From positions 560,987 through 624,986 of the forward strand of contig NZ_HE611015.1 of NCBI RefSeq assembly GCF_000236865.1: a stretch of DNA of 64,000 nucleotides. Reading direction: 5' to 3'. The notes beneath the pieces were generated by a model, which was given only the letters and a program-made list of their open reading frames with translations, was not told where the DNA came from and did no database searches. The stretch comes from Senegalimassilia anaerobia JC110. Its GTDB lineage: Bacteria > Actinomycetota > Coriobacteriia > Coriobacteriales > Eggerthellaceae. Below, one piece after another: positions 3,317-26,478 of this stretch (positions are counted from its first letter, which is position 1; each line of letters opens with the position of its first letter). A program made the position numbers and the translations under genes.

Positions 3317-3607
3317 CTATGCCGTTGCCGCGGAGGTGATGATATGGGACGCCGCTTGACGGCCGATGGCCACCTGCGCGCCTTTGACGGAGACGATCAG
3401 GTCTCCCGCCACGCCCGACACCACCTTGACCTCCGCTCCTTCCACGAAGCCGAGATTCTCAAGATGATGCTGCAAGTCGCCCCTCCCACGCACTTTGACG
3501 ACATGCGCGGACTCACCCTCTTTCAGGAAGGAAAGCGGCATCTGCTGGACGGACACGCTAGAAGCTCGCGCAGCCTTCACCGCAGCGCTCGTCATCGCAG
3601 TCTCCAT
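3317..3607 (-). CDS. feoA: FeoA domain protein (distal copy)
   Basis: A second FeoA-like protein of 96 residues, first in the feo cluster. The FeoA core covers about 21-90 (LKEGESAHVVKV, then the helix with LENLGFVEGAEV and the C-terminal IVSVKGAQVAIGRQAA). Residues 1-20 are a non-conserved extension. A GGGAG SD sits before the ATG at 3607, and an internal ATG at codon 5 is an alternative. Two FeoA paralogues with one FeoB recur in Gram-positive and actinobacterial feo clusters. Whether the two work together on FeoB cannot be read from sequence. Confidence 0.88.
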   Translation of the reverse strand: METAMTSAAVKAARASSVSVQQMPLSFLKEGESAHVVKVRGRGDLQHHLENLGFVEGAEVKVVSGVAGDLIVSVKGAQVAIGRQAASHIITSAATA

Positions 3608-4050
3608 GATGTTCTCCCTTCATTTGTTAGACGCATACAACAGAAAGATGTTACATCAAATTGACTTTGCATGGAAGCCTTGGGCAACTTTTTGTACGCT
3701 ACGGGTAATTTTTCAAAGTTTCACCACATTTACTCCGGAACGAGCAAAGCGCGGCTGAAGATGCCAGACGAGCGGACATGAAAAGCGTTCCGACTGCAAA
3801 CTTGCTCTCCGCCACCCTTCCTACCCGCCTCCGTCGAAACTGCTCGCAAGTATTTCCCGCACTAAAAGAGGGCGAGCCCTCTGCAGCTAGGCGGCACGAG
3901 TCCCGACATCGATCTCATTTGCCGAAAACGTCATTCGCCACCGTTTGTCTGAAGAACGGGAAATTCATCTTCCATCTGTACTTTCGCAGGAATATTATGC
4001 GTACCGTGAATAATCCCCCTTTTCGCAATGCCGAAGGAGGCGCCAAGCCC
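3608..4050. other. Intergenic region between feoA and thrC
   Basis: A 443-bp divergent gap. The open frame running into thrC from 3778 encodes a basic, low-complexity N-terminus and looks non-coding. A 7-bp inverted repeat, AGAGGGC/GCCCTCT, spans 3867-3882. A TATTAT hexamer at 3993-3998 could be the thrC -10 element, but no convincing -35 is seen. No T-box signature (GGTGG-type antiterminator bulge) and no tRNA were found. The feoA promoter could not be assigned. Confidence 0.5.
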
Positions 4051-8813: not shown

Positions 8814-9737
8814 TCAAGCCAGCCCACCTCCTAGAAACGCCAGCAGATCGACCACCGTGGGAACGAGCACCAGCAACGTGGTAGGCGGCAAAAAGCAAAC
8901 GGACAGCACCACATCAAGCTTCGTCGGCATTTTCCTGATATGCTCGAGCGCCGCCGCTTGTGCGCGCGCACGGGCAAGCGCAGCTTGATTGGCAAGCCCT
9001 TGCGCCACCGATGCGCCCTGCTCTATGGCCTGAGTCAGCTGAGCGGCGAACGCGGTGACCTCCTGGCTTGCGCAGCGCTGCGCAAGATTGGAAAGCGCCT
9101 TCGCACGGGAATGCCCCAACAGGTTGACCTCTTGGTCCACCAGGCGGAACTCATCGGCAAGCGGGCCGCTCAAGCTCTCGGCGACTTGGCGGAAGCACTG
9201 TTCCACCGGAGATCCGGCAGCTATCGCCACGCCAAGCAGTTCCATGGCGTCGGGCAATCCGGCATCGATGGCGGCGCGGCGCGCTTGGCGCTTCGATCGC
9301 AGATACAGCTGCAAGCCTCCGCAACCCGCTAGCCCCGCTCCGCAAACGACGAAAACGAAAACCGCCGGCGCTGCACGAAACGCGATGCACGCCGCAACGG
9401 CGATGACCACGCAGCCCGAAACCGCGGCAAAGCACACGCAACGCCAGGTTTCGGGCTCCAAAGCGATGCCCGCGCATCGAAGCCGTTCCCTTGACCGCTC
9501 CCGCTCCCTCATTGAAAGCGGGGCGAAACCCGCAAGCGCCTCCACAGCACGCGACCACAAGCGAGCCGCACCCGCATGAGCCCGACCCCTCGACGAGCCG
9601 CCTGCCTGATCGGATCTTGCCCATGCCGGCATAAGCCCACGCGCCTTCACCCCGACCCAAGCGTTGAGCGCCTCGTAAACCGCCAACCCCGCAGCAACCG
9701 CCAGCAGGCAGATCGCGCAAAACGTCAGACTTCGCAT
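8814..9737 (-). CDS. tadC: Tad pilus inner-membrane protein TadC (module B)
   Basis: A 307-residue T2SSF/GspF-family protein of the Tad pilus inner-membrane platform, expected to work with TadB and the CpaF ATPase. Membrane segments are at about 3-22, 104-122 and 125-145, with a final pair near 275-305. The conserved F-domain helix IDAGLPDAMELLGVAIAAG lies in the middle and PTKLDVVLSVCFLPPTTLLVLVP at the C-terminus, typical of TadC. GGGGG precedes the ATG. It follows tadB by 29 bp. Confidence 0.88.
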   Translation of the reverse strand: MRSLTFCAICLLAVAAGLAVYEALNAWVGVKARGLMPAWARSDQAGGSSRGRAHAGAARLWSRAVEALAGFAPLSMRERERSRERLRCAGIALEPETWRCVCFAAVSGCVVIAVAACIAFRAAPAVFVFVVCGAGLAGCGGLQLYLRSKRQARRAAIDAGLPDAMELLGVAIAAGSPVEQCFRQVAESLSGPLADEFRLVDQEVNLLGHSRAKALSNLAQRCASQEVTAFAAQLTQAIEQGASVAQGLANQAALARARAQAAALEHIRKMPTKLDVVLSVCFLPPTTLLVLVPTVVDLLAFLGGGLA

Positions 9738-9766
9738 GTATCACCCCCTACCCGGCGCAAGCGCGC

Positions 9767-10684
9767 CTAATACGAGAACCTTGTGATCCGACGGCACGCC
9801 GCAATACCCGCCACCTCCATGAGCGCAGCGCCCGCAAGCACGGCCCACCCCAGCGGGTTTTCCCGATAGAACAGGGAAAAAGCCGGGTTTGTGGCGAACA
9901 TGAACGCGAAGATCGCAGGCATGGCGCACGCCACCACCACCGTGGCCATGCGCGTTCCCGCAAGTTCGCTGCGCAGCTCCTGCTGCATGAGGGCGCGGCC
10001 CTGGGCGTGCTCCGCGATCAGATCGAGAACCGCGCCCATCGACCCACCGAAACGCTGCTGGATGCGCATGGCCGACGCCAACGCCGCGACATCGGCGTCG
10101 CCTGTGCTCTGCGCCATGCGGGCAAGCGCCTGCACCAACGGCATGCCGTAGGAAACGCGCGCGAGCACCGCCATCAGCTCCGAGCGCAACGGCTCCGGAG
10201 CATGGTCGGCCGAGACCCGCAGCGCGCGCTCAAGAGTCAGCGAGCTTTTCACGCTGGCCGACAGCTGAGGAACGAGCCGCACGAACTGCCGGGAAAGCAG
10301 CTCGCGCCGTTTCGCCCGTGCGCGCAGCACGTACAGCGCCGCGGCGATGGCGACCAGCCCCATGCCCAGCATCGCACCGAGCGGGCCGCTTATCCGCATG
10401 CCGAAAAATGCCGCGAACGCGCCCACGGTGCCCAAGCACAGCGTCCATGAAACCGGAGATGCCTCGATACCCGCATCGCGCAGCATCCTGCCAAGCGGTC
10501 CTTCGGCATCCGCCTTCGCCGACTCGGCATCGCGTTTGCCCAGCTCGTACAACGCCCGGTCCGACGCCCGAGCGTCGCTTTCCTCGGCCCTTTGCCGCAA
10601 CCTCAAGGACAGGGCGGTGCACGCCACCGCCGCTGCCGCCAAAAGCACGCCGAAGGCAAGCGCCCCGGAGAAGAATCCCTTCAT
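9767..10684 (-). CDS. tadB: Tad pilus inner-membrane protein TadB (module B)
   Basis: A 305-residue T2SSF-family protein. The N-terminal helix covers about 5-25 and a paired hydrophobic region about 85-125. The F domain has FVRLVPQLSASVKSSLTLERAL and MRIQQRFGGSMGAVLDLIAEH, typical of TadB. The C-terminal helices surround FSLFYRENPLGW. The ATG at 10684 (with GGAAGG 8 nt upstream) is favoured over one two codons earlier at 10690. It is 13 bp downstream of cpaF. Confidence 0.88.
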   Translation of the reverse strand: MKGFFSGALAFGVLLAAAAVACTALSLRLRQRAEESDARASDRALYELGKRDAESAKADAEGPLGRMLRDAGIEASPVSWTLCLGTVGAFAAFFGMRISGPLGAMLGMGLVAIAAALYVLRARAKRRELLSRQFVRLVPQLSASVKSSLTLERALRVSADHAPEPLRSELMAVLARVSYGMPLVQALARMAQSTGDADVAALASAMRIQQRFGGSMGAVLDLIAEHAQGRALMQQELRSELAGTRMATVVVACAMPAIFAFMFATNPAFSLFYRENPLGWAVLAGAALMEVAGIAACRRITRFSY

Positions 10685-10697
10685 AGCCATCGCCTTC

Positions 10698-12017
10698 CTA
10701 TGACCCGAAAAACCAAGACGGATCGAACCTCACCCCTGCCGCGAGCATGCGCTGCTTGATGCGCTGCGGCTGAACGCCGCACGCGCGCCAAGCTCCCGTG
10801 ATGCGGCCGAACGCATCCACCCCGCGCGGGTCGAACCGGAACAGCTCGGCGCGGGGGATGACCGTCGCGCCCTCGGACATCTGGTCGACCGCCACGATGC
10901 TGGTAACGCGCCGCCCTCCGTCGCGCATGCGCTCCACATGGACGGTCAAACCCCCCGCAAGCGACTCCGAGATCTGCTGCACGATGACGTCGCGACCCAA
11001 ATCGGCGTTGGCATAACCCACCATGGTGCGCAGGCGGCTCAGCGCATTCCCCGGGTCGTTGGCATGCACGGTGGTCATCGAGCCGGGGTGGTCGGTCTGC
11101 ATCGCCTGCAGCATCTCGTAAGCCTCCGCCCCGCGACATTCGCCCACGATGATGCGATCGGGGCGCCGACGCAACGAGAGCGCCACCAGCTCGCGCATGC
11201 CAACGGCCCCTTCGCCTTCGATGTTCGCCTCGCGCGTCTGCATCCGCTCGACGTGCGCAGCACGCAACCGCAGCTCAGGCGTATCCTCGATGGTCAAAAC
11301 GCGCTCATCGTCGGGAATGAACCCGGAAAGCGCGCCGAGCATGGTCGTCTTTCCCGACCCGGTGCCTCCGGATATGACCACAGGGCACCGAGCGCGCACC
11401 GCCGAGCCTAAAAACTCTGCCATCACGGGGCTGAGGGCGCCTCGCGCCGTCAGATCCTCGATGCTCATGACGTCATCGCCGAACAGGCGAAGGTTGAGCG
11501 CGGGGCCGTCCGGGGCAAGCGGAGGCACGATGTAGGTCGCTCGCGCCTTGCCGCCCGGCAGCATGGCGCAGCCCATGGCATGCGCCTCATCGCAGCGCAT
11601 GCCCGCCTGCTCGGCGATCTTGTCGATGATGCGACGGAGATGGTCGGCGTCGTCGAACCGAACGTACGGGCACGGCTCCAATCGCCCTGCGCGCTCCACG
11701 AACACATGCGGCTCCAAAAACCTTGCAACTCCGGCATCGATCGCCACGCCACCGCCGTTGACGATGATCTCGGTGATCCCAGGGTCCTCCAACAGCCCTT
11801 GCAAAGGGCCGTAGCGAAGGAAATCGTCGCCGACCGAACGGCACAAGCGAGCGACATCGGGCTCTGCAAGGCCCAGGTTCCACGCCCGCACGGCCTCTTG
11901 CACAAGCGACTGAATGGCCGATTCCACCTCCACGGGATCGAAATCACCCTGTAACCTCGTCGCAAGGCCTTCGCGAACCGCCCGCTTCAGGGCAAGCTCG
12001 GTCCCCCTATCCATCAT
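10698..12017 (-). CDS. cpaF: Tad secretion ATPase CpaF/TadA (module B)
   Basis: A 439-residue hexameric secretion ATPase that powers Flp pilus assembly. It has an N-terminal helical domain (YGPLQGLLEDPGITEIIVNG), Walker A GGTGSGKTT (217-225), an Asp box ending IEDTPELRL, Walker B RIIVGECRGAEA and a His box with MTTVHAND. The start at 12017 (or 12014) overlaps the end of cpaB by about 11 bp, with GGGGGG upstream. It is clearly divergent from the second CpaF at 22.5-23.9 kb. The two share motifs but differ in most surface sequence, so this is not a recent duplication. Confidence 0.95.
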   Translation of the reverse strand: MMDRGTELALKRAVREGLATRLQGDFDPVEVESAIQSLVQEAVRAWNLGLAEPDVARLCRSVGDDFLRYGPLQGLLEDPGITEIIVNGGGVAIDAGVARFLEPHVFVERAGRLEPCPYVRFDDADHLRRIIDKIAEQAGMRCDEAHAMGCAMLPGGKARATYIVPPLAPDGPALNLRLFGDDVMSIEDLTARGALSPVMAEFLGSAVRARCPVVISGGTGSGKTTMLGALSGFIPDDERVLTIEDTPELRLRAAHVERMQTREANIEGEGAVGMRELVALSLRRRPDRIIVGECRGAEAYEMLQAMQTDHPGSMTTVHANDPGNALSRLRTMVGYANADLGRDVIVQQISESLAGGLTVHVERMRDGGRRVTSIVAVDQMSEGATVIPRAELFRFDPRGVDAFGRITGAWRACGVQPQRIKQRMLAAGVRFDPSWFFGS

Positions 12018-12864
12018 GCTCGACCATACCCCCCGACAACATGCCGCCCGCAACGAGCTGGACGCTGATAGTGCCCGACGCCTGCGCGCGGCGGACGGCG
12101 TCCGCCTGCTCCGGCGTCAACTCCAACGTGATGGCGCTATACGCCGCACCCTCGCCAGCGCCATCGCCGCCCACCGACATCACCCGCGCCGAAGCGCAAA
12201 GCTCGTCCAAGCTGACCGCGCCGCCGGCGGCATCGGTGACGCACACCACGCGAACCTCGTCGAACGGCTGGACCTGCCCGGCCACGCCCGTCTCGTCGTT
12301 GACCGACAGGGACACCGCCTCCATGCCCGCGGCGAGCTGCGCGGCCAACCTGCCATCCGCCGCGCTGCCGGCGATCATCTGAGGCGATAGCTGCGTGTTC
12401 GCCGGAATGGACACCAACGCCCGGGCACCTGCCACGCCGCCCGCACCGTCAAGGGCGTCGGCGCCGAGCGCATCATCTTGGCGGAAGGCCTGAGGGACCT
12501 CCACAAGCTGCACCGCATCCGCGCCGAACGGATCGCCGGCCGCAACGTCGCGCGTGGTGACGACCACGCTGCGAGCGCCCTTCGTCGCTTGATCGACCGC
12601 CGCATGGGACACCCCAGCCTGCCATAACCCGTATCCCACCGCCACGACCGCAACGGCCACCGCCGCCGCGGTCACCGCCGACATCTGTTTGAAACGCGCA
12701 GCTGCGGAATCCATCGAGCGGACGGCATCGTCGATCGGACGCTGCTCGCCCTCGTCCTGCTGCCCGGCCGTCCTTCCAGACGCCGCCCCCGAACGCCCGC
12801 CGGAGCGCAACCGCCCCGACAGCGTCTGCCGCGAGACGCGCCCCGTATTCCTTCCGACCGACAT
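12007..12864 (-). CDS. cpaB: CpaB/RcpC-type Flp pilus protein (module B)
   Basis: A 285-residue SAF-domain protein of the CpaB/RcpC family. A cytoplasmic Arg/Gly/Ser-rich segment of about 70 residues precedes one membrane helix (AVTAAAVAVAVVAVGYGLW). The SAF domain then follows (VVVTTRDVAAGDPFGADAV ... RALVSIPANTQLSPQMI), and the C-terminal part includes LELTPEQADAVRRAQASG. The start at 12864 is set by AAGGGGG. CpaB is thought to form part of the periplasmic or cell-wall assembly complex. The other copy (25436-26089) lacks the long cytoplasmic tail. Confidence 0.87.
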   Translation of the reverse strand: MSVGRNTGRVSRQTLSGRLRSGGRSGAASGRTAGQQDEGEQRPIDDAVRSMDSAAARFKQMSAVTAAAVAVAVVAVGYGLWQAGVSHAAVDQATKGARSVVVTTRDVAAGDPFGADAVQLVEVPQAFRQDDALGADALDGAGGVAGARALVSIPANTQLSPQMIAGSAADGRLAAQLAAGMEAVSLSVNDETGVAGQVQPFDEVRVVCVTDAAGGAVSLDELCASARVMSVGGDGAGEGAAYSAITLELTPEQADAVRRAQASGTISVQLVAGGMLSGGMVEHDG

Positions 12865-12880
12865 GGTCGTCCCCCTTTCG

Positions 12881-13468
12881 CTATCCACCTAAACGGGCTT
12901 GAGCCTCCTCGGCTATCTCCCGAGGGAACCCCTCAAGCGCGCTTATCGCCGAAAACCGCCCCTGGCCTGCGCCGCAGCCATCGCCAAAACAATGCACGCC
13001 GCATATGCGGGCATCAGGCCGCCAAACTTGCTGCGCCGCATACGGGCGCGCGCTGAACACCCGGCTCGAAGCCACCTTCGCATCGGGGGCGGAGCTTGTG
13101 GCAAACGGAAGGGCTTTCGCCTCCTCCACCTGCATGCCCACCACCCAAATCCGCTCGCTTTTGGCGACTGCCTGAGCAGGTGCCTCGTAGAACCACACGC
13201 TTATCGCCCCTTCCACCCCTTGCGCCCTAACCTGCTCCACGATCAGGTCGGCAAGAATCGCGCCTGCATCATCGCCGTATTTCGCGGCGGCGGCTTGGCT
13301 GGCATCCATGCAGGCCGACCTTGCGGCATCCAATGCCTGTTCCTGACGGGCCTTTGCGCCGTAAAGCAGGGCGCAATCCGCCAAAAAGCCCAGCGTCATC
13401 ACCAATACCAGGCACAACGCCACGGCAAGCGGGGCAACGTTGCCCCTCTCCCCCCGATATCGGCTCAT
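12881..13468 (-). CDS. TadE/TadG-like minor pseudopilin
   Basis: A 195-residue protein with an N-terminal pseudopilin-like segment (GERGNVAPLAVALCLVLVMTLGFLADCALLYGAKARQEQALDAARSACMDA), like TadG/TadE N-termini. The mature part is extracytoplasmic and contains a Cys-rich stretch CGVHCFGDGCGAG. The usual Glu at +5 of TadE pilins is not present. ATGA coupling with the upstream TadE-like gene (overlap 13465-13468) indicates cotranslation. A precise role is not known. Confidence 0.75.
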   Translation of the reverse strand: MSRYRGERGNVAPLAVALCLVLVMTLGFLADCALLYGAKARQEQALDAARSACMDASQAAAAKYGDDAGAILADLIVEQVRAQGVEGAISVWFYEAPAQAVAKSERIWVVGMQVEEAKALPFATSSAPDAKVASSRVFSARPYAAQQVWRPDARICGVHCFGDGCGAGQGRFSAISALEGFPREIAEEAQARLGG

Positions 13469-13923
13469 GCAAGGCTCACCTCCGTCACCCGCTCATCGAC
13501 CACCGCGCACGTGACATGACGCGACAGCCTTCCGCCTTCACGAAACCCCGCCAGCGAGATCGGCGCCTTATAGGACACGTCGTAGGAAACGGAAGTGAGG
13601 GCCGTGCGGCTTGAGACGCCGCTTGCGGAAAACGCATCCTCGCGCGCGTTCGATTCCACCCGCACCCCCGACACCGTCAAATCGCTACGGCGCAGCTGCG
13701 CAGACTCATCGAGAATCTGCTCGGCGACGAACGACTCCCTATCCGATGCCGTCCTCAGACCTGACACGTCGATGCGCATGCACGCCTGGGTAAGCTCGGA
13801 GGACAGCATGATGGCGGCCGCGTTCATCATGGCCACCTGCATGATGCCGAACGCCACGACGATGAGCAGCACCGCGGCGAAGGAGAACTGCACGCTCTCG
13901 CTCCCCCGTTCATCGACGACCAT
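13465..13923 (-). CDS. TadE-like minor pseudopilin
   Basis: A 152-residue TadE-family protein: short N-terminus, DERGSESVQFSFAAVLLIVVAFGIMQVAMM membrane/pilin-like segment, then a soluble extracytoplasmic domain. The ATG at 13923 has GGAGG 6 nt upstream and overlaps the previous gene by 14 bp. The Glu in GSESVQF is near the position expected for pseudopilin processing. It is the second of three consecutive TadE-like genes in module B. Confidence 0.78.
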   Translation of the reverse strand: MVVDERGSESVQFSFAAVLLIVVAFGIMQVAMMNAAAIMLSSELTQACMRIDVSGLRTASDRESFVAEQILDESAQLRRSDLTVSGVRVESNAREDAFSASGVSSRTALTSVSYDVSYKAPISLAGFREGGRLSRHVTCAVVDERVTEVSLA

Positions 13924-14392
13924 GCCCCACCTCCGCATCCGCATCCACCGAAACCGTCCTGCTCGCCGCCGATGACAGCTGCAGCCCGTCGACCGCGCCC
14001 GCCGCGGAGAGCGCCACCTCGCCGACGGGAGTCAAGCATCGGGCGCTCACGCGCATCCTCACGTCCACCTGCCGGCAAGCGAACCCGACCGGTCGCGCTT
14101 CGAAGCGATCCGCCTGCGGATCGAACGTCTTGCGCTCGACCTCCTTCGTCCGCACGGGCGAGCAGTCGACCTCGATCGAGCAGGAAACTCCCTCGCCCGC
14201 AAGCCCGGGAGCCTGCTCGAGCGCCGCCGAAAGAGCAAACGCCCCGTCCGGACCCTTATCCCCTTGCGCGACGCGCTGAGCCGCATAGCGGCAGGCGGCC
14301 TGGGCCGCGACATCCGCTTCCATCCCCAGATACGCCGCCCTTCCGATATCCGCGACGGCGCACAGCAGGCCCATCAGCAAGGGCAGCGCCAT
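13910..14392 (-). CDS. TadE-like minor pseudopilin, start uncertain
   Basis: The frame shows an N-terminal hydrophobic segment ASAVTFVMALPLLMGLLCAVADIGRAAYLGMEADVAAQAACRYAAQ, typical of TadE-like proteins, then about 110 soluble residues with several Cys. The first ATG that gives this product is at 14392, but conserved-looking residues lie just before it and no SD is visible. The frame stays open back to about 14461, where the pilin gene stops, with only CTG codons as alternative starts. Translation may depend on coupling to the pilin gene. The +5 Glu is absent. Confidence 0.6.
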   Translation of the reverse strand: MALPLLMGLLCAVADIGRAAYLGMEADVAAQAACRYAAQRVAQGDKGPDGAFALSAALEQAPGLAGEGVSCSIEVDCSPVRTKEVERKTFDPQADRFEARPVGFACRQVDVRMRVSARCLTPVGEVALSAAGAVDGLQLSSAASRTVSVDADAEVGHGRR

Positions 14393-14457
14393 CACGAACG
14401 TGACGGCGCTCGCCCCATCGACCCGTGCCCGGCTGCCGGCCAGGCACGCAAGCGCAG

Positions 14458-14706
14458 CTACCTGCTTCCCACCGCGCCGCTCGTCACGCTCTTGAACATG
14501 TTCGTGACCGAGTTGCCAGCGGACGTGATCGCCGTGTTGACCTGCGTCTGTAAGATCATGAGCGCCGCTCCCAAGCCCACGGCGAAGCCGAGCGCGATGA
14601 CCACCTGCACAATCTCCGATCCGCCGTCTTCCTCGCCGCGATACGCCAGAGCGCGAGCCTTGTCCGCAAAGCCCCTCAGGGCAACGCCGTTCATGTCCAT
14701 ACCCAT
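14458..14706 (-). CDS. Flp1-type type IVb pilin
   Basis: An 82-residue small pilin. Residues 23-45 read EEDGGSEIVQVVIALGFAVGL, followed by QTQVNTAITSAGNSVTNMFKSVTSG. This is the pattern of Flp1/Flp-family pilins of Firmicutes and actinobacteria: acidic turn, short hydrophobic helix, polar amphipathic tail. The ATG at 14706 follows GGGAAGG. It sits directly downstream of the prepilin peptidase gene and upstream of three TadE-like genes, so it is the most likely major pilin of module B. It differs in sequence type from the flp gene at 20.5 kb. Confidence 0.75.
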   Translation of the reverse strand: MGMDMNGVALRGFADKARALAYRGEEDGGSEIVQVVIALGFAVGLGAALMILQTQVNTAITSAGNSVTNMFKSVTSGAVGSR

Positions 14707-14801
14707 ATCCAAACCTTCCCATTCGCTGCCTTTTCCTTGTCATCGAATCGAACCGACGCCGAACCAGCCCAAAGGCACCACCTCCTTTCCAGATCCCGCC
14801 C

Positions 14802-15692
14802 TCATCCGAGCACCGTCGTCCCCACCGCCAGCCATATGGACAAAAACGGCGCCATGGGAATGCCGTCGCGACGTCCAAGCCGATGCATCAGCATCCCGAC
14901 AATCGAGAACGTGCACGCCGACACATAGCAAGCCGCCGCGCCCAGAAGCGTCGCGGGACCGCACGCGAAGGCAAGCGCCGTCATACAGCGAATATCGCCG
15001 AAGCCCACCGATCCGCCGCTTTTTCGCGCAATGCGGTTCGCCGTCCAGCACACCGCCAGAACCGCTGCCGCGGCAACGGCGCCTTCCGCGATGCCGATGG
15101 ACCCATGGCGAAGAAGTTGATAAGCGCCTCCTGCGACCAGCAACGCCGCACAGCACTCAAGCGGGATCATCCTTGCCCGCAGGTCGCACACCACCCCCGA
15201 CGCCATGGCCACGCCGCATACGCAAAGCAAAGCGCCTTGGTGCCACGGGACGCCGGACAGCGGCTGGGCCGCGAACCACAACGCCATGGCGGCGGCGAGC
15301 ACCGCTCGCTGCCACGACCGCGGGGAGAACGAGCAGCGCCGTTGCTGCTGGACCTCGCTTCGCGTTGAGGCGCCCTTTCCAACATCGATGCCTGCCTCCC
15401 GAAGCTCTTCGGCGCGCTCGTGCGTGAGCGCCCCCTTCAAAGCCTGGGAGCGGCAATCCGCAAGCCAGATGCCCACGGCGCCTGCCGTCCCCCTCTCGTT
15501 TTGACGGGGAAGCCGGCCAGGACAGGCGTCGCGATAATGCGCAAAATCATCCAAACAACGATACCACCAGGTATAAGAGCGCCAATATGCCCTGCTCAGC
15601 AGCATGTCGGCGATTCGAGGGATCGCGAACGCCCCCGCCACCGCCCCGACTGCCGCGCATAAGGTCAACACGGTAAGCGCATACCCCGTCAT
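14802..15692 (-). CDS. Prepilin peptidase (A24 family)
   Basis: A 296-residue polytopic aspartyl protease that trims prepilin leaders. The two catalytic aspartates are visible: CDLRARMIP (the D after Cys) and GFGDIRCM, matching the GxGD motif. The fold continues with IPMAPFLSIW near the C-terminus. An N-terminal region of about 100 residues with one helix and a soluble charged segment precedes the peptidase core and is longer than in minimal TadV/CpaA. The start overlaps the zinc-ribbon gene by 4 bp. It is the only prepilin peptidase seen here, so it may serve both tad modules. Confidence 0.88.
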   Translation of the reverse strand: MTGYALTVLTLCAAVGAVAGAFAIPRIADMLLSRAYWRSYTWWYRCLDDFAHYRDACPGRLPRQNERGTAGAVGIWLADCRSQALKGALTHERAEELREAGIDVGKGASTRSEVQQQRRCSFSPRSWQRAVLAAAMALWFAAQPLSGVPWHQGALLCVCGVAMASGVVCDLRARMIPLECCAALLVAGGAYQLLRHGSIGIAEGAVAAAAVLAVCWTANRIARKSGGSVGFGDIRCMTALAFACGPATLLGAAACYVSACTFSIVGMLMHRLGRRDGIPMAPFLSIWLAVGTTVLG

Positions 15693-17186: not shown

Positions 17187-17626
17187 AACAGCACCCCGGG
17201 CTTGTAGCAATCCACCACCAGCTCCTCGGTATGCGACAGCTTCGGCAGCGCCACTCCCATCACCTCCGACTTCAACCCCAGACCGAACAACGTGGGCATG
17301 TACTCGAGCGTGGCCGAAAACGATGTATGCCCCGCTGAGACGCCATGCGCCGAAACGCTTACCGAGACGTTTTCCGCGTCCAACCGTTCATCGAGCGCCC
17401 GCTCGATGAGCGCGCAAGTATCGCCCACGCCCTGCCCGTACGCCGGCGAAGCGGCATAGACCCGGACCGAATCGCGGAAATCGTCATCGAACGCCGCGCA
17501 CCAGCCGAAAAACGCCAGGGCGTTGACCGAGATGGCCGCCACCGCCAAAAGCACGGGCAGCGCCGCCACGAACTCCACCGTCATCTGCCCCGACGACCTG
17601 CCGACGGCGCATATCCGATCAACCAT
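17183..17626 (-). CDS. TadE-like minor pseudopilin (module A)
   Basis: A 147-residue TadE-family protein. The N-terminus VDRICAVGRSSGQMTVEFVAALPVLLAVAAISVNALAFFGW has the G-x4-E pattern (GQMTVE) used for prepilin peptidase cleavage. An extracytoplasmic domain of about 105 residues follows. The ATG at 17626 shares its first base with the TGA of tadG; ATG at 17635 is an alternative. Its partner genes are tadG upstream and the exported protein downstream, both overlapping. Confidence 0.82.
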   Translation of the reverse strand: MVDRICAVGRSSGQMTVEFVAALPVLLAVAAISVNALAFFGWCAAFDDDFRDSVRVYAASPAYGQGVGDTCALIERALDERLDAENVSVSVSAHGVSAGHTSFSATLEYMPTLFGLGLKSEVMGVALPKLSHTEELVVDCYKPGVLL

Positions 17627-19755
17627 CAATCCCATTGCCTCAATCCCGTCACGCTCGCATACACGGACAGAAGCTTGTCGGCCGCAGCCCCGATGGCATC
17701 CGAGGCGAGCCCTTTCACCGCCGGGGGCAGCGCCACCGTTACGGGCACCTGGGCGCCGCCTATGCTGATGGTCGCTACTTCCACCGAATCGCCCCAAGCG
17801 TCGAAACGCTGCAGCACGTCCCTGCGAACAGCGCCCACCACCGACGAGAACACGTCGTTGGACATGAGCGGATGCTCGACCGCCTGCCGCTTCACCTCGA
17901 GCAAGCGAGCGCAAAACGCGCTATCGCCGGCCTGCGCGACATGCGCCGTGTTCACCGTCGCCGGGCGCAGCGCATCCAGGTTCGCCGGCTGAAGCCCTAC
18001 GGTGCGAAACGCATCCGAAAGCGCATCGGCGGCCCAATCCCCTAATCCGGAGGCGCTTACCAGGGGCAAGCCCCCCAAGCCCTCGCGCACAGCCGCATCC
18101 AACGCCGACTGCCCATCGGCATAGGCGCTCAGCGCCCCCGACCAAACGCCCGCTGCAGCGCCCAACACGCCCGCAAGCGCCGAATCCGATGCCAGGCCGT
18201 CGGTCAAAGAGGCGATGACGCTTCGCCCCTCGCCGGACGGATCGGCCACCAGCGTTGCCGCCGATATCGCCACGCGGCACCCCAGCTGGCCGCTGGCCTG
18301 CACGAACGCGGATTCGAACCCCTTGTCGGGGGCATCGGGGCCCGTATTCACCGCAAGGCAAACCACCCCCTTGCCCCCGGGCGGATCCGCATCGATGCGG
18401 AACGATCCCACGCTCGAGCACGCGTCGCGCAGCTGGTCGAGCAGCTTGGATACGCGGCTTTTCGCCTCCCGCTTCGCCGGGGCGCCCTCCTCAAGGGCCT
18501 TTTGATACTCCTCGGCGGCAAGCGCCACCTGCTCGTAGTGATGCTCGAAGCCGTTTCCTATCGACGTGGAGGCTGCCGCCACCTTGCCCAGGCTTGCCGC
18601 CGTGAAGCCGCATTCCGAGCACGTCTCCCATGCGCCCGCTTCCATATCGCGAAGGGAGGCCCGCGACGTGGACCCCGCCGCCTTCGGGCAACCGTCCCAC
18701 GCGTGCAAGGTCGGGGAGGCGTCCGTCACGCTGACCGGGTACACCGCCTGCGCGAACAGCTCGGTCTCCCGCATCTGCGCGGTGTTGGCGGGAAGATGAG
18801 GGAACAAGGCCTCGAACGAATCGCCCTCCCGAACGTATCCACGCGCCACCTCCTTCGCGGCATAGGTGTAAAAGCGCTTGCGCAGCGCCGATTGGGCCTG
18901 GGCCTGAACGCTGCCGTCATCGGGGCGTTCGACCGCCAAGCGCGCCGGGTAATACGCCTGTGCCCTGCGAAGCGCCACGGAAAACGACCAGGCGTCCACG
19001 CTTGAGAACACCGGATTTTGCGCGCCCATCATATGCGCCAGGGTTTCGGCGCGCTCGGCCATGCACCAACCGGGACGGGCACCGCAGTCGTGATCGAACG
19101 CTCGCTGCTTGGCGTCTTGGGCCCGCAAGGCCGCCTCCTCGGCCCGCCGTGCCAGCTCCTTGACCTCCTCAGCCTGGCCGATCGCATCTTCTCGAGCCTG
19201 CTTGGCGCGCGCGTCTTCCTGCGGCACCCGGATATCCTCGGCGGAATCGGGGACCAGCAGGGCAAGCGCCGTGTAATCGGACCCGTTCGAGCCGTTCCCC
19301 TGCGCAACCGATGCCGCGCTGGCCGCCGCCAAAAACGGGAGGGCCTTCTGAACGCGCGTCAAGCCCTCGGAAGCGGTCTTCGAGAACGAATCTCGGGCAT
19401 CGGCCACGCGCGCACCGGCTTCGAGCAGCTTGGCGCCCACGCCCTGCCCGCCGGGAACGCAACATGCGACGATCCCCAAACCTGTGGACGTCAAGCTGGT
19501 CAGCGACAAGGACAGGGCCACGGAATCGCACACGCACACCGCCACCATGAACTCCGCGACCACGTTGCCCGCCGCAAGCGCACCGGCATCTGCCACCGAC
19601 TGCACACGCGATGACACGGATTGGATTCGGTACACCTGAGCCGACGAGAAGATCATCGACAACGCCAGCAGAAGCGACACCACCATGCCGACCGTGGTCA
19701 TCCCGTCCTCATCCCGCAGGGAAAACGCCTGCGCCATTCTGCGCGGCACGCTCAT
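17626..19755 (-). CDS. tadG: TadG-like Flp pilus assembly protein
   Basis: A 709-residue protein anchored by one N-terminal helix: DGMTTVGMVVSLLLALSMIFSSAQVYR, then SVADAGALAAGN, the pattern typical of TadG-type proteins. A Glu/Ala-rich coiled-coil stretch (DARAKQAREDAIGQAEEVKELARRAEEAAL) lies at about 185-220, and a Cys pair CSECG occurs further on. The rest is large, extracytoplasmic and of unknown fold. ATGA overlap with the upstream TadE gene sets the start at 19755, with GGAG 7 nt before it. It probably shapes or anchors the pilus at the cell surface. Confidence 0.78.
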   Translation of the reverse strand: MSVPRRMAQAFSLRDEDGMTTVGMVVSLLLALSMIFSSAQVYRIQSVSSRVQSVADAGALAAGNVVAEFMVAVCVCDSVALSLSLTSLTSTGLGIVACCVPGGQGVGAKLLEAGARVADARDSFSKTASEGLTRVQKALPFLAAASAASVAQGNGSNGSDYTALALLVPDSAEDIRVPQEDARAKQAREDAIGQAEEVKELARRAEEAALRAQDAKQRAFDHDCGARPGWCMAERAETLAHMMGAQNPVFSSVDAWSFSVALRRAQAYYPARLAVERPDDGSVQAQAQSALRKRFYTYAAKEVARGYVREGDSFEALFPHLPANTAQMRETELFAQAVYPVSVTDASPTLHAWDGCPKAAGSTSRASLRDMEAGAWETCSECGFTAASLGKVAAASTSIGNGFEHHYEQVALAAEEYQKALEEGAPAKREAKSRVSKLLDQLRDACSSVGSFRIDADPPGGKGVVCLAVNTGPDAPDKGFESAFVQASGQLGCRVAISAATLVADPSGEGRSVIASLTDGLASDSALAGVLGAAAGVWSGALSAYADGQSALDAAVREGLGGLPLVSASGLGDWAADALSDAFRTVGLQPANLDALRPATVNTAHVAQAGDSAFCARLLEVKRQAVEHPLMSNDVFSSVVGAVRRDVLQRFDAWGDSVEVATISIGGAQVPVTVALPPAVKGLASDAIGAAADKLLSVYASVTGLRQWD

Positions 19756-20261
19756 AGCCAAGCTCCTATCCAAGCCTCAGGGTCAAGCCCCTGCGGGCTG
19801 CCCGCAACCCACTCGGGCTGCGTCGCCCGCTCGCAACGGACCTTCACCGTCAACAGCCCATCGCCGTCCGTCATACCGAGCAGCACGGCGCCCGCGCCCA
19901 AAAACGGCAGCGGCTTGACCTTGCCGACAACCTCCACGCTCACCTTCTCGGAACGCTCGTCCCCTTGCACGGACACCTTCCAGCTGCAACCTCCCTCGTG
20001 CACGTGAAAGCAGGGGACGGGCGGGATGGCGCCCAGCCTATGGCGGACGAACGCCTCCACGGCCTGCGACGAATCACCTACGGCATCGGTCTTGACGGCG
20101 GCAAGCCTGCACGCATCGCTTGCCGCCGCCTGCATGACCATCCGGTCGTACAGGACCATGCCGGGCTGCACGGACAGCAACAGCACCGTGAACAGGACCG
20201 GGATGAGGAACGCAGCCTCCACGGTCGCCTGCCCGCGCTCGCTTGCGCGCGAAACGCCCAA
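19752..20261 (-). CDS. tadE: TadE-like minor pseudopilin (module A)
   Basis: A 169-residue TadE protein with a classical N-terminus, ERGQATVEAAFLIPVLFTVLLLSVQPGMVLYDRMVMQAAASDACRLAA, including GQATVE for prepilin peptidase processing. Extracytoplasmic Cys residues (PCFHVHEGGCSW, VRCER) may form disulfides. The start codon is TTG at 20261, supported by a perfect AAGGAGG 7 nt upstream. It lies 27 bp after a smaller TadE-like gene and overlaps tadG by 4 bp. Confidence 0.85.
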   Translation of the reverse strand: MGVSRASERGQATVEAAFLIPVLFTVLLLSVQPGMVLYDRMVMQAAASDACRLAAVKTDAVGDSSQAVEAFVRHRLGAIPPVPCFHVHEGGCSWKVSVQGDERSEKVSVEVVGKVKPLPFLGAGAVLLGMTDGDGLLTVKVRCERATQPEWVAGSPQGLDPEAWIGAWL

Positions 20262-20288: not shown

Positions 20289-20525
20289 CTAGTACAGCAC
20301 CGTGTCCGCCAGCGCCCCAGGCAACGAGCCCGTCACGCAATGGGAGGCGCACGACAGCGCATGCTCCACGAACGTGCCCGCCGAAACGCTGCGCCAAAGC
20401 GCGCCCATCCCAAGCACGACCGACAGAAACGCCACGGCGACCAGCGCGAACTCGACCGTCGCCTGACCCGCGCAATCGCGCGCCGCGATTCGCCTACAGG
20501 CTGTTGATGCCGTCGGCGATCGCAT
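20289..20525 (-). CDS. Small TadE-like pseudopilin (module A)
   Basis: A 78-residue TadE-like protein: CAGQATVEFALVAVAFLSVVLGMGALWRSVSAGTFVEHALSCASH. GQATVE is intact. It is shorter than usual TadE proteins, ending soon after the helical segment. The ATG at 20525 lies inside the 3' end of the flp gene in another frame, with AGGAG 7 nt upstream, so it should be translated even though the flp reading frame is interrupted. Confidence 0.8.
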   Translation of the reverse strand: MRSPTASTACRRIAARDCAGQATVEFALVAVAFLSVVLGMGALWRSVSAGTFVEHALSCASHCVTGSLPGALADTVLY

Positions 20526-20709
20526 CCCACAGCTCCTGCAGCTTCGGCCGGAAAACCGTTATCGCGATGATGGCTATCACCACCAGCACGCCGACCAAGA
20601 TCGCGTATTCGGTCGTTCCCTACCCGTCCTCGCCGTGCCGAAGGCGGGCCACCTTGCACGCGGCCTTCGCCAGCGCTCGCCGATATGCATCCATAACCGC
20701 TCGAATCAT
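20494..20709 (-). pseudogene. flp: Flp pilin gene with in-frame amber codon
   Basis: Read through, the frame encodes a 71-codon Flp prepilin: a basic leader starting MIRAVMDAYRRAL and ending RHGEDG, then the mature pilin GTTEYAILVGVLVVIAIIAI and an amphipathic tail ending INSL. Codon 30 is TAG (20622-20620), exactly where Gln or another residue would follow the cleavage Gly in a G-Q-GTTEY motif. The product would therefore end with the leader alone. GGAAGGG precedes the ATG at 20709, two bases after the tadC stop. A CAG-to-TAG nonsense change, a sequencing error or recoding are the options. TAG ends other genes here, which argues against reassignment. Confidence 0.85.
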
Positions 20710-20711
20710 GC

Positions 20712-21635
20712 CTACATCCCTTCCATAAGCTCCAACAACACGGGCCCGAGCACCAAGAGCAGCATGGCGGGAAGGATCAGCGTCCCCGTGGGGATCATCA
20801 TCTTCACAGGCGCCTTGGCGACCCGCTCCTCCACCTGCGCCTTTCGCGCCGCACGCGCCTGTTCCGCCGCCTGCTCCAGAACCTCGCCAAGCGAGGTGCC
20901 GAACCGCAGCGAGCGGATGACGGCCGACACCGTGCGCGAGAACAGCGGGTTATCGTACCCTTGCGCCAAAGCGCGCAAAGCGTCTTGACGGGTCGCAAGC
21001 CCCGCTTCCCACGACCTTTGCGCCACGGCGCACTCGCGCGCCAGCCCATCATCGAAATGCCCCGTGTACAGCTGCAGGCTGCGATCGAACGAAAGCCCGC
21101 TGCGCACGCCGAGCGCCACCACTTCCAACATCTCCGACATGCTGCGCTCCAGCGCCTGAGCGCGCTGACGCCGGGCCCCGCGCACCGCACGTCCCGGCGC
21201 GGTCGCGCCTGCGATACCGCCCGTCACGCAACCAACTACCGCAAGCTCGTTCGATGCCGCGCAGCCCAACAACGCTCCCGCCGCCGCACCCGCCGCAGCA
21301 AGGCGCACCGCTCCCTCGCAACACGCCTGGGCCGACACCGTCCCGCCAAGACCGGCCTTGCCCACCTGCTCCTCGAAGCGCGCATGCGCACCGCGCAATG
21401 CGCCGACAGGCAGCACCGAGCGAGTGGCCCGCAATGCCAATCGCCTGCTCAAACCCTCCAGATACGAAAGACATGCGCTCGCCTGCGCACCGCCTTTCGC
21501 CCGCCCGTCATCAGGCGCGCGGGCCCTTGCCGCGCGGGCTCGGCGAATCGATTGCGCGCCCGTCCAGCCAATGCACGCACCCGACGCCGCGCCTAGAACG
21601 GCCGCGATCGCAGGCAGCGCCATCGCATACACCAT
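20712..21635 (-). CDS. tadC: Tad pilus inner-membrane protein TadC (module A)
   Basis: A 307-residue T2SSF-family platform protein. The N-terminal helix is MVYAMALPAIAAVLGAASGACIGW. The F domain has ERSMSEMLEVVALGVRSGLSFDRSLQLYTGHF and IRSLRFGTSLGEVLEQAAEQAR, and the C-terminus KMMIPTGTLILPAMLLLVLGPVLLEL is diagnostic of TadC. The ATG at 21635 overlaps the TGA of tadB by one base, with GGAGG 7 nt upstream. Confidence 0.92.
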   Translation of the reverse strand: MVYAMALPAIAAVLGAASGACIGWTGAQSIRRARAARARAPDDGRAKGGAQASACLSYLEGLSRRLALRATRSVLPVGALRGAHARFEEQVGKAGLGGTVSAQACCEGAVRLAAAGAAAGALLGCAASNELAVVGCVTGGIAGATAPGRAVRGARRQRAQALERSMSEMLEVVALGVRSGLSFDRSLQLYTGHFDDGLARECAVAQRSWEAGLATRQDALRALAQGYDNPLFSRTVSAVIRSLRFGTSLGEVLEQAAEQARAARKAQVEERVAKAPVKMMIPTGTLILPAMLLLVLGPVLLELMEGM

Positions 21636-22582
21636 CACGACACCTCCACGTTCAACATGCGGCGCACCGCGAGCACGCCCGCAACCTCCATCGTGCACGC
21701 CAATCCCAACAGGCCCAACCCCAGCGGGCTTTGCAGGAACGGGTCCAAAAACCCTTTGCTCACCAGCGAGAACACGGCGACCAAAGCGAACGGCATCACC
21801 GTGACCACGCGCGCCGACAGCCGCGCCTGAGCCGTCTGCACCCGCAACGCACGGCGCAGGGCCAGCTCCCCTTCGACCGTCTCGCGCGCCGCCTCGAGCA
21901 CCGGACGCATGCTGCCGCCCGCTTGGTGCTGCACGTCGAGCGCCACCGCCACGAAGGCAAGCTCCGACCTTTTCCCGCCCGCGCGCAGCGCCCTTAAGGC
22001 CTCGCTCGAGCCATGGCCCGTCTCGAGCAGATGAGCGCAAGCCGCGAACCTCTTCCCCAGCGGCCCCTTTATCTCGCCCGCCAGCTGCTGAAACGTCTGC
22101 AGCAGCGAAAAGCCCGCCTGAAAGCACGAACCCATGGCATGAAGCGCATCGGGCACCGCCTCGCGCAACGCCTCCTCCTGGCGATCGCGCCACCCGTGGA
22201 CGCGCGCCACCGCCACGGCGCAAGCCAGAACCGCCACGGCGACGCCGGCAAACGGCGAGGCGGATACCAGCCCCACGCAAACCGCCAGCGCCGCTGCCGC
22301 CGCAACGGCAAGCGAACACAGGCTCCGCGGCGTGCAAACCACCCCGCGGCCTTGCAACGCCGCCTGGGCGTCACCCGCAAGAGCGGCTACCTTGGGCACG
22401 GAAAGCAAGCGGCGCGCAACCCCGTCGGCGCAGCGCACGCCGTTGCGTGCAAGATGCTGCCCGATTCCGCCTTCGCCCGCCCTACGGCGCCGGGTACGCC
22501 GTAACACGGCCTGCGCGCAAAGCGCACCACCGGCAAATGCGGCTATGGCTGCTGCCGCCCCGAACACGCCAGATGCTTCCAT
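21635..22582 (-). CDS. tadB: Tad pilus inner-membrane protein TadB (module A)
   Basis: A 315-residue T2SSF-family protein. Segments visible: N-terminal helix, paired helices around 89-130, REAVPDALHAMGSCFQAGFSLLQTFQQLA in the F domain, DVQHQAGGSMRPVLEAA, and C-terminal helices around FLDPFLQSPLGLGLL. The ATG at 22582 lies 40 bp inside the end of cpaF, with GGAGG 7 nt before it, which is strong evidence for translational coupling. Confidence 0.92.
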   Translation of the reverse strand: MEASGVFGAAAAIAAFAGGALCAQAVLRRTRRRRAGEGGIGQHLARNGVRCADGVARRLLSVPKVAALAGDAQAALQGRGVVCTPRSLCSLAVAAAAALAVCVGLVSASPFAGVAVAVLACAVAVARVHGWRDRQEEALREAVPDALHAMGSCFQAGFSLLQTFQQLAGEIKGPLGKRFAACAHLLETGHGSSEALRALRAGGKRSELAFVAVALDVQHQAGGSMRPVLEAARETVEGELALRRALRVQTAQARLSARVVTVMPFALVAVFSLVSKGFLDPFLQSPLGLGLLGLACTMEVAGVLAVRRMLNVEVS

Positions 22583-23871
22583 TCCAATACCTCCTCCCCA
22601 TCAAGCCCTATGGTTTCGGGCAGGTCGTCCACCCAATCGGGCAGGGCCTGCCACGACCCCGCTTCTTCGGGAGAACGCCGCTCGAACAACGTCTTCACGC
22701 TGCAGGCACGCGCCCTTTGGTCGTACACAAGCTCCGACACATGGGTCACGCATCGCCTGCCGCTGAGCGCCCGCGACGTCTGCACCACCACATCGAACGC
22801 GCTTGCCGCGTTCGCCTCGATCACGTCCACGGGCAGATCGACGCCGTAGCGGACCATGGTCACCACGCGGGAAAGCACGTCGCGCGGGGAGTTGGCGTGC
22901 AGCGTGGTGAGCGACCCGTCGTGCCCGGTGTTCATGGCGGTGAGCATGTCCACCGCCTCCGCGCCGCGGCACTCGCCTACCACGATGCGGTCGGGGCGCA
23001 TGCGCAACGCGTTGATCACCAGCTCGCGGATGGTCACCTCGCCCGCCCCCTCGGCGTTGCGCGGGCGCGCCTCCAAGCGCACCACATGGGGATGCTCGAG
23101 AAAGCGCAGCTCGGCCGTATCCTCGATGGTCACGATGCGCTCGCCTGCGGGAATGCAGCACGACAGCGCGTTGAGCAACGTGGTCTTGCCGCTGCCCGTA
23201 CCGCCTGCCACCACCACGTTCTTGCGCGCAAGCACCGCCCATTCCAGAAAGCGCCGCAAATGCCCGTCGATCGAGCCGAAACGCTCCATCTCCTGCAGCG
23301 TTATCACGCGCTGGGTGAACTTGCGGATGGTGACGATGGGCCCGTCCGGCGCAAGCGGCGGGATGACCACGTGCACGCGATGGCCTTCGGGCATGCGGGC
23401 GTTCACCATCGGCGACGACTCGTCCACACGCCTGCCGAGCGGCCCGAGCACGCGATCGATAAGCGCCCGAAGCTGGGCTTGGCTCGAAAACGCCCGGTCG
23501 CTGCGCACAAGGCGCCCTTGCCGCTCGAAGAACACGTCGCCGGGGCCGTTCACCATGATCTCGGTGATGGTCGGATCGGCCAGCAACGGTTGCAATGGGC
23601 CGAAGCCGAACACCTCGTCGATCAGCTGCTCGGACAGCCTGGATCGACGCAAGGCATCAGCCCCCTGCCACACGGGCAGCGCGAACGCCTGGCGGCACGC
23701 CCCTAAAAGCTCGCTTCGCGCCCGCGCCGGCTCGAACGCCATCAACGCCGCTATGTCGTCCACCGACACGAACAGGCGCACATCCTCTTTCAGGCGCGCA
23801 AGCGTCGCCGTGGGCGCATGACCTTCGCCGCCGCCCGCACCCAACGCCTGCGCACGCTCGGCCAGCGTCAT
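22543..23871 (-). CDS. cpaF: Tad secretion ATPase CpaF/TadA (module A)
   Basis: A 442-residue secretion ATPase. The helical N-terminal domain ends with FGFGPLQPLLADPTITEIMVNG. Then come Walker A GGTGSGKTT (223-231), the Asp box around IEDTAELRF, Walker B RIVVGECRGAEA (295-306) and a His box with LTTLHANSPRD. This is close to canonical CpaF of actinobacterial and Chloroflexi Tad systems. AAGAAGG precedes the ATG, two bases after the tadZ stop. It drives Flp assembly with TadB and TadC encoded just downstream. Confidence 0.96.
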   Translation of the reverse strand: MTLAERAQALGAGGGEGHAPTATLARLKEDVRLFVSVDDIAALMAFEPARARSELLGACRQAFALPVWQGADALRRSRLSEQLIDEVFGFGPLQPLLADPTITEIMVNGPGDVFFERQGRLVRSDRAFSSQAQLRALIDRVLGPLGRRVDESSPMVNARMPEGHRVHVVIPPLAPDGPIVTIRKFTQRVITLQEMERFGSIDGHLRRFLEWAVLARKNVVVAGGTGSGKTTLLNALSCCIPAGERIVTIEDTAELRFLEHPHVVRLEARPRNAEGAGEVTIRELVINALRMRPDRIVVGECRGAEAVDMLTAMNTGHDGSLTTLHANSPRDVLSRVVTMVRYGVDLPVDVIEANAASAFDVVVQTSRALSGRRCVTHVSELVYDQRARACSVKTLFERRSPEEAGSWQALPDWVDDLPETIGLDGEEVLEWKHLACSGRQQP

Positions 23872-23873
23872 GA

Positions 23874-25403
23874 TCAGGCCTTCTTGCGCTTGCGCGAGCG
23901 CTTTCCGCGCAGGAAGGGCATGCCCGGCCCCTCGCGCGAAGACCCCGCCGCAGCCGATACGCCGGGCAATATCTCGGCCATAAGCCCCTCGACGCCCTCG
24001 AACAGGTCGTTGCGCGAATCGATCAGGTCGACCACCAGCCCCGCCGCCAGAAGCTCCTCCACATCGGCGCCGCCGTCGGGCAGCTCATGCACATGAGCCC
24101 CCTTCAACGCGCACGATACGTCCATCGACGATAGCGGCGCCCCCTTGCCGCAGCCGTTCAGCGTGAACAGGAACGGGTTGACGGCTATGCCGCAGCGGGC
24201 GCACAGGTCGAGCGCGCGCTGCGTCGCATGCACCGAGGTGGCTCGCTGATCGACCAAGAACAGGGCCTTCGAGCTGCGCTCCAACAGCACCGCATGCTGC
24301 TCGGCCCACGCGCCGCCCGTGTTCGCCACGATCACGTCGAAGCGCTCTCGCACGGCATCCAGAAGCGCCGGCGCCTGCGCCACCACCGCCTCGGCGGCGT
24401 CCACATGCTCCGGAGCGGCCAGCAGCGCAGGAACCTTCCCCTCGCAGGCAAGCTGGGCCAGACGCTCAGGCCGGGCAAGCACCTCGTCGATGCGCAGGGG
24501 CTTCTTCACGCCCATGAGCTGCGCCATGTCGCCGAACTGCAGGTCGAAGTCGAGCAGCAGCGTGCGCAGGCCCAGCCCCTGGGCCGCATGCGCCGCAAGC
24601 AACGCGACCGCGCTTTTGCCCGCGCCCCCGCTGCCGCTCACCACCGGCAGCAAAAAGCCCTTCGCCGCAGGGTGCTGCGCGTTCGCCGCCGAAGCCGAGG
24701 AGCTTCCAGAAGCCCCCAGCCCCGATGCGGTCCCATAAGGAGAAGCGGTTGCGGCAAAGGCCTTCGTCGCCGATGGGGCGACAAGGCCTGTCTGGGCGTT
24801 CGCCGGCGCATACGATTCTCCCGGCCGGACCCCCGCAGACGTAGCCATTGTTACCGCGGGCGCCGCCGCACCCTCAAACGTCCCCGAAAAGCCAGCCGTA
24901 GGCATTGCGGCCGTTCCGTACGGAGAAGCGGCCGAAGGCGCGTTGCCGAACGCCGCCTGCTGCGGCGCTGCCGCCTCCCCCGCAGGCGCGCAACCGGCCC
25001 CAGGGCCGATCCCCGCCTGCAGCTCGATCGCCCGCATGGCCGCCTGCTTGCACTGCGCGTATCGCTCGACGAAGGCCTGCCTGGTCAACGACGCATCCAC
25101 GCCCGCCGCGGTCGTCCTGGACCGCAGCGATCCCGATTCCTGCGCCGTCAACATGCACACGCGCCTATCGACGCGATCGCGCTTCAACGCCGCCGCAAGG
25201 TTGATGGGCGCCACGTCCGTGCAGGAGACCACCCACACCTCCTGCACGCTCGCCGCATCACGCAACGCCGCACGTGCCGCTTCGGCGGACGTGAACGGCA
25301 TGAGCCACTGCTGCGCAAGCAGGTTCTCCCCTTCAAGGCCCAACAGCTCCGGATGCCGGAAGCATTCCTCATCGGCGCACAGCGCCACCAACGGCATGGA
25401 CAT
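23874..25403 (-). CDS. tadZ: TadZ/CpaE-type MinD-like ATPase
   Basis: A 509-residue pilus localisation ATPase. Residues 1-125 form an atypical receiver-like domain (VALCADEE ... VWVVSCTDVAPINLA). Residues about 130-247 are a low-complexity Ala/Pro/Gly/Ser linker with two SPYGTA repeats. The C-terminal MinD/ParA-like domain has the deviant P-loop SGSGGAGKS (256-264), in which the signature Lys of KGGxGKT is replaced by Ser, and LLLDFDLQFGDMAQLMG. A basic tail ends RGKRSRKRKKA. AAGGAG precedes the ATG at 25403. It is the only TadZ seen, so it may place both modules. Confidence 0.88.
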   Translation of the reverse strand: MSMPLVALCADEECFRHPELLGLEGENLLAQQWLMPFTSAEAARAALRDAASVQEVWVVSCTDVAPINLAAALKRDRVDRRVCMLTAQESGSLRSRTTAAGVDASLTRQAFVERYAQCKQAAMRAIELQAGIGPGAGCAPAGEAAAPQQAAFGNAPSAASPYGTAAMPTAGFSGTFEGAAAPAVTMATSAGVRPGESYAPANAQTGLVAPSATKAFAATASPYGTASGLGASGSSSASAANAQHPAAKGFLLPVVSGSGGAGKSAVALLAAHAAQGLGLRTLLLDFDLQFGDMAQLMGVKKPLRIDEVLARPERLAQLACEGKVPALLAAPEHVDAAEAVVAQAPALLDAVRERFDVIVANTGGAWAEQHAVLLERSSKALFLVDQRATSVHATQRALDLCARCGIAVNPFLFTLNGCGKGAPLSSMDVSCALKGAHVHELPDGGADVEELLAAGLVVDLIDSRNDLFEGVEGLMAEILPGVSAAAGSSREGPGMPFLRGKRSRKRKKA

Positions 25404-25435
25404 CCCTTCTCCTTCCGCTTGCTTTAAAACCGCTC

Positions 25436-26089
25436 TCACCTCGCATCCGCGCCGGGCAAGGTCAGGTACAGCTCGGTTTTTTGAGCCGCCGACACAAGCT
25501 CCTCCACCTGGTTCGGGTCGACGGCAAGCGTCACCCACGTCACCTTCGAGGCCGACCCCGATGCCTGCCGATCGTCCGTTCCGGCGCTGGTGGCCAACAC
25601 GCTCACGCCCCGCGCCAATGCTTGGGTGGCCGCGCTTCCCGTGGCATACACGTCCACCGATGAGCCCGCCGACACCGCGCCGCCCACCGCCTGCACGTCC
25701 TTGGCCGGCACGCTGATCGCAACCTTGCCGTCGGGCACGTCTATCGCCGCCGATGCCGCGCCGAACCTTCTTGCGGAAAGGACCTCTCCGGAAAGCACCG
25801 TGGAAGACGCCTTCGACCCCACAACCTCCGATGTTTGCCGCACCGCTTCGGGCGGCAAGAGGTCGGCAACCCACAAACGCGTCTCAATAGCCCCTGAATC
25901 TACTGTTTCACCTGCGGCTATGTCGCGCTTCGCCACGCAAACCTCCACCTGATCGCCGCCGTAGCGGGCCAAGGCGTCGGCCCGGGCGCGCTCCGCCTCG
26001 CCGCGCACCGACTGGGTATATCCGAGCACGCACAACGCGCACAGCACACCGCATATCGCACCCGCCGCAGCGGTCTTGTTCCGTCTCAT
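25436..26089 (-). CDS. cpaB: CpaB/RcpC-type Flp pilus protein (module A)
   Basis: A 217-residue protein and the first gene of the tad cluster. The N-terminal helix is AAAGAICGVLCALCVLGYTQ. The SAF domain is CVAKRDIAAGETVDSGAIETRLWVADLLP ... VLSGEVLSARRFG, followed by VAISVPAKDVQAVGGAVSAGSSVDVYAT, the CpaB core. AAGGAGG lies 5 nt before the ATG at 26089. No clear promoter could be assigned in the roughly 390 bp between this gene and the tRNA promoter. Confidence 0.9.
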   Translation of the reverse strand: MRRNKTAAAGAICGVLCALCVLGYTQSVRGEAERARADALARYGGDQVEVCVAKRDIAAGETVDSGAIETRLWVADLLPPEAVRQTSEVVGSKASSTVLSGEVLSARRFGAASAAIDVPDGKVAISVPAKDVQAVGGAVSAGSSVDVYATGSAATQALARGVSVLATSAGTDDRQASGSASKVTWVTLAVDPNQVEELVSAAQKTELYLTLPGADAR

Positions 26090-26478
26090 GCGCACCTCCT
26101 TCGCTTCGCAGCATCCAGTATGGGAACGCCATCTTGCGAAACCCTTGCCGGCAACGCCGTCTCTTGTCGTCACAACCTTGCAAGCCCGTCCGATCCGAGG
26201 TCATGCGGAATCCTCTTGCCCGCCCCCAAACGCTTGCAGAAGGAACCGGACCCGGTAACTGCCGAACCCGCACCGTGATGCCCTGCAGCGGACAGCTTCT
26301 CCACGTTCACGAACCCCGCACTATGAACAGCCTTGCAGCAGACAACCTTCTCGCGCATTCGTGGACCCGCGCGGCGACGCTGGCCATATGGCTCAACAAG
26401 ATGCCTTCAACGCAAAAACCCGCCGACGCGGAGGGCAAGCTCGGGCAGGCCCAGCGGCATCGACGGGTTGTGCAGTAT

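Follow-up and report, generated by a model that had tools for sequence, protein, structure and literature searches.

A premature TAG codon in flp, the module A pilin gene, among intact tad genes of Senegalimassilia anaerobia JC110

The module A pilin gene and its surroundings

The window analyzed here, 64,000 nucleotides of the Senegalimassilia anaerobia JC110 draft genome, carries a tad operon (module A) in which flp, the gene for the major pilin, lies between a tadC-like and a tadE-like gene (Table 1). The set of genes is that of a Flp/Tad locus, with the A24 prepilin peptidase gene slightly farther off. The minus-strand segment 20709-20494 opens with an ATG at 20709 and translates as MIRAVMDAYRRALAKAACKVARLRHGEDG, a TAG at 20622-20620, GTTEYAILVGVLVVIAIIAITVFRPKLQELWDAIADGINSL and a normal terminal TAG; it is thus codon 30 of 71 that reads TAG, with an open frame on both sides. 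This is the frame of the original prediction – a basic leader, then TAG, then a full tail – and re-translation returned it unchanged.

Flp prepilins are processed by the G/xxxxEY rule (the slash marking the cut), and, stop aside, the module A frame has both hallmarks of a Flp protein, a cleavage motif and a hydrophobic helix (GxGTTEYAILVGVLVVIAIIAI). The stop had been placed exactly at the cleavage site; it does adjoin the predicted prepilin peptidase cut, but is better described as replacing residue +1 of the mature pilin, directly past that cut. Since only about five codons of the gene, codon 30 included, are one transition away from a stop, the position of the TAG at the cleavage site needs no special cause. 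Re-initiation past the stop was considered and rejected, since a pilin started at the in-frame TTG or GTG codons would lack both the leader and the cleavage motif. The Flp_Fap profile (PF04964) did not report the module A locus even at an E value of 1; because an intact Flp encoded elsewhere in the genome (on contig C4, see below) likewise reached a score of only 14.6, where 32.2 is the cut-off, the profile appears to have little sensitivity for this lineage.

The neighboring tad genes, described earlier as intact, are indeed all open. The 55 kb around module A are collinear with the nearest genome of the same genus (G001), with module genes and other conserved genes open throughout, and no decay of the operon as a whole was seen. 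Ahead of its TadE motif the first tadE gene has a single ATG, at 20525, and this falls inside the 3' end of flp: the two genes may thus be translationally coupled, in which case the stop could have a polar effect on tadE. The window also holds a second tad module (module B, 8814-15692), which has a pilin-like gene, cpaF, T2SSF genes and rcpC of its own; the A24 peptidase gene lies at its edge. The module B genes are 39-71% identical to those of G001, below most of the surrounding genes.

Table 1. Positions of the module A genes, the module B pilin-like gene and the elements that split flp in relatives (JC110 positions are those of the window).
Feature	Position	Strand	Remarks
flp, module A major pilin	20494..20709	-	Broken at codon 30; from translation and relatives
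TAG stop, mature residue +1	20620..20622	-	Gln in 93/93 relatives read
tadE-like gene	20289..20525	-	Intact; overlaps flp
tadC-like T2SSF protein gene	20712..21722	-	Intact; putative start
tadB-like T2SSF protein gene	21635..22582	-	Intact
cpaF/tadA ATPase gene	22543..23871	-	Intact
cpaE/tadZ-like ATPase gene	23874..25874	-	Intact; Pfam match slightly under cut-off
rcpC/cpaB	25436..26173	-	Intact
Second TadE-like gene	19752..20261	-	Intact
tadG-like large gene	17626..19773	-	Intact; 64% identity to G001; without Pfam match, named from position and size
Prepilin peptidase (A24) gene	14802..15692	-	Intact
Module B small pilin-like gene	14458..14712	-	Separate, intact
Insert in flp of G053	C1:226356-261035		About 34.7 kb; portal, terminase and tail genes; large serine recombinase by the split gene
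Insert in flp of G100	C2:381050-425591		About 44.5 kb; phage genes not annotated; serine recombinase 56% identical to that of G053, in the equivalent place
Insert in flp of G101	C1:2248583-2262797		About 14 kb; a different serine recombinase

The pilin gene in relatives

Of the 138 family genomes, 132 contain relatives of the module A pilin (the stop was entered in the query as Q in one early search and as X in later ones), and in G001 the gene is intact and 80% identical. The equivalent of codon 30 was read directly in 93 relative loci, some of them from genomes represented twice: TAG is absent from all, and glutamine is encoded throughout, by CAG in 73 and CAA in 20. The proposed origin of the stop in a single base change fits these codons. 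A pattern search of 398 Coriobacteriia genomes, in which GTTEYA had to be preceded by a stop (or TGG), found a stop at the motif in one only, that of JC110 itself; a conserved regulatory stop was rejected on this ground. The finding of the stop in this lineage only, while orthologues in other lineages are intact, is as expected of a pseudogene made by a recent nonsense mutation.

Over the 41 mature codons that follow position +1, JC110 and G001 differ at 15 codons synonymously and at one nonsynonymously. Were these codons evolving neutrally, each synonymous change should be accompanied by about 2.5 nonsynonymous ones. Judged by these codons, the sequence downstream of the TAG still carries the signature of strong purifying selection. 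Assuming 5-10 synonymous changes on the JC110 branch, the share of that branch free of selection is at most about 12-38% (a rough 95% bound). Conservation past the stop implies either that the TAG is young or that it is not real.

A separate observation concerns an AT-rich Eggerthellaceae genome of 1.1 Mb (G066, 75% complete), in which TGA stands at the tryptophan of relatives in 20 of 37 aligned TGA columns, flp (C28, around 3512-3703) among them. In this 75% complete assembly no RF2 was found above cut-off, while three relatives have one; likewise no tRNA-Trp(UCA) was found in the incomplete genome, although a tRNA with anticodon UCA, called as SeC, is present. On this evidence G066 may read UGA as tryptophan.

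Integrated elements in flp and a further tad module

In at least three relatives (G053, G100 and G101) flp is split about ten codons past the cleavage site by an insert that has a large serine recombinase beside the split gene (Table 1), and in a fourth (G021) the gene also breaks off early, close to the end of a contig. By its gene content the G053 element is clearly a prophage, and flp looks like an attachment site (an attB hot spot) in Eggerthellaceae; no paper on flp as an insertion site was among the best matches of one literature query, a weak check. Within the family, insertion of elements appears to be another, independent way in which the pilin is lost. Together the nonsense and insertion cases suggest that loss of the module A pilin recurs in Eggerthellaceae, possibly under selection by phages, given that in Caulobacter phage adsorption involves Tad pili (PMC11067988).

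Contig C4 of JC110 holds another tad module (C4:40000-55000, parts of which read as N). It encodes an intact Flp, EGGQGTTEYALLIGLIIVAVIVAMTLF, together with two TadE proteins, RcpC, a CpaF-type ATPase and a DUF192 protein. The C4 Flp has the same GQGTTEY motif and is only 38-40% identical; it was not found in the other 137 genomes of the family, where matches proved to be the module A orthologue. The G+C content of the C4 region (0.706, against about 0.64) suggests that the module was acquired, likely by transfer. Since this separate module has an intact Flp, the strain need not have lost Flp pili altogether: JC110 may still make them, though not from the module A pilin.

Explanations for the stop and comparison with known systems

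The explanation we favor, and consider probable, is that this one Eggerthellaceae strain has very recently acquired a nonsense mutation in a major pilin gene, its tad (type IVc) operon being complete in all other respects. Loss of the module A pilin was among the options raised originally, and by way of such a mutation it is the best supported of them. The main rival, which we consider unlikely, holds that the TAG is an assembly or base-call error and that flp is intact in the organism. The genome is a draft in 30 contigs, and both the conservation downstream of the stop and its uniqueness in the Coriobacteriia sample would fit an error. However, a 71-codon gene with so few nonsense-accessible sites is a small target for random error, and the assembly looks clean. 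When about 199 kb of the JC110 contig were compared with 200 kb of G001 (some 142 coding-supported genes, about 45,000 amino acids), 18 of the 142 genes showed a stop within the aligned part, mostly close to the N-terminus, as over-extended reading frames would give. The initial survey was noisy, owing to wrong-strand frames, and a codon-position filter plus direct reading of four flagged genes removed the main false breaks: these four were antisense or start-extension artefacts. The only conserved gene with a confirmed mid-gene stop is flp. This argues that the assembly is not generally error-rich, though one wrong base is still possible. Since the stop is known from a single assembly, it may be an error, or else a change present only in the culture that was sequenced.

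The remaining alternatives accept the TAG and keep a pilin. That module A now assembles a pilin encoded elsewhere is very unlikely in our view. An intact Flp with the same motif does exist, in JC110 alone of 138 genomes and in a region whose G+C suggests acquisition, so the earlier idea of a replacement pilin stands to that extent; but this protein is diverged and sits in a separate module whose own CpaF, RcpC and TadE genes likely serve it, just as the ATPase and T2SSF genes of module B likely serve the module B pilin. We give slightly less credence again to read-through, whether at a low level (for example by tRNA-Gln(CUG)) or by a suppressor, yielding little or regulated pilin. The tRNA-Gln(CUG) is present, near-cognate misreading would insert the very residue found in relatives, and downstream conservation is compatible with continued translation; trace amounts of pilin made in this way are conceivable. 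Least credible is the extension of this idea, in which UAG is a tolerated low-level read-through switch: near-cognate tRNA-Gln would restore the native residue, and the strain would make a small number of pilins, and pili that are thin or rare, while keeping the gene. Against read-through, none of the 46 distinct tRNA sequences covering 55 tRNA hits has anticodon CUA, which led us to reject a suppressor tRNA and disfavors the option of a suppressed codon; RF1 is present above its curated cut-off; and a stop found in no relative is not a conserved regulated feature. Near the window TAG also ends more conserved genes than either of the other stop codons (47 of 116, about 40%), in keeping with the original view that a codon ending so many genes is unlikely to be reassigned; with RF1 retained, genome-wide UAG reassignment was rejected. 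The signs of recoding – a UAG-reading tRNA, absence of RF1, a conserved in-frame stop – were not found: what the stop represents is gene loss of an ordinary kind (with a sequencing error as the less likely option), and not a new reading of the code.

If the nonsense mutation is real, RF1 would terminate translation after the 29-residue leader, no module A Flp subunit would be made, and module A would be unable to build a normal pilus. The machinery genes would persist since decay has had too little time to set in. Losing the pilin would be tolerable, perhaps selected: the same strain has the C4 tad module with its intact Flp, and another species is known to lose its Flp pili when passaged. A pilin nonsense mutation in a single strain is in itself ordinary; JC110 would then have its use as a natural pilin-minus strain whose pilus machinery is intact.

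No paper on Eggerthella Tad pili was among the best matches of a literature search. The closest parallel is the rough-to-smooth conversion of Aggregatibacter actinomycetemcomitans, in which small mutations at the flp locus, or a deletion there, cause spontaneous loss of Flp pili on culture (PMC9239275). There the changes are SNPs in the flp promoter or a deletion, whereas in JC110 the change is a nonsense codon with no known link to passage. With Flp/Tad (type IVc) loci module A shares a G/xxxxEY Flp, RcpC/CpaB, CpaF, TadB, TadC, TadE-like proteins and an A24 peptidase; it differs from them in the premature stop in its major pilin gene.
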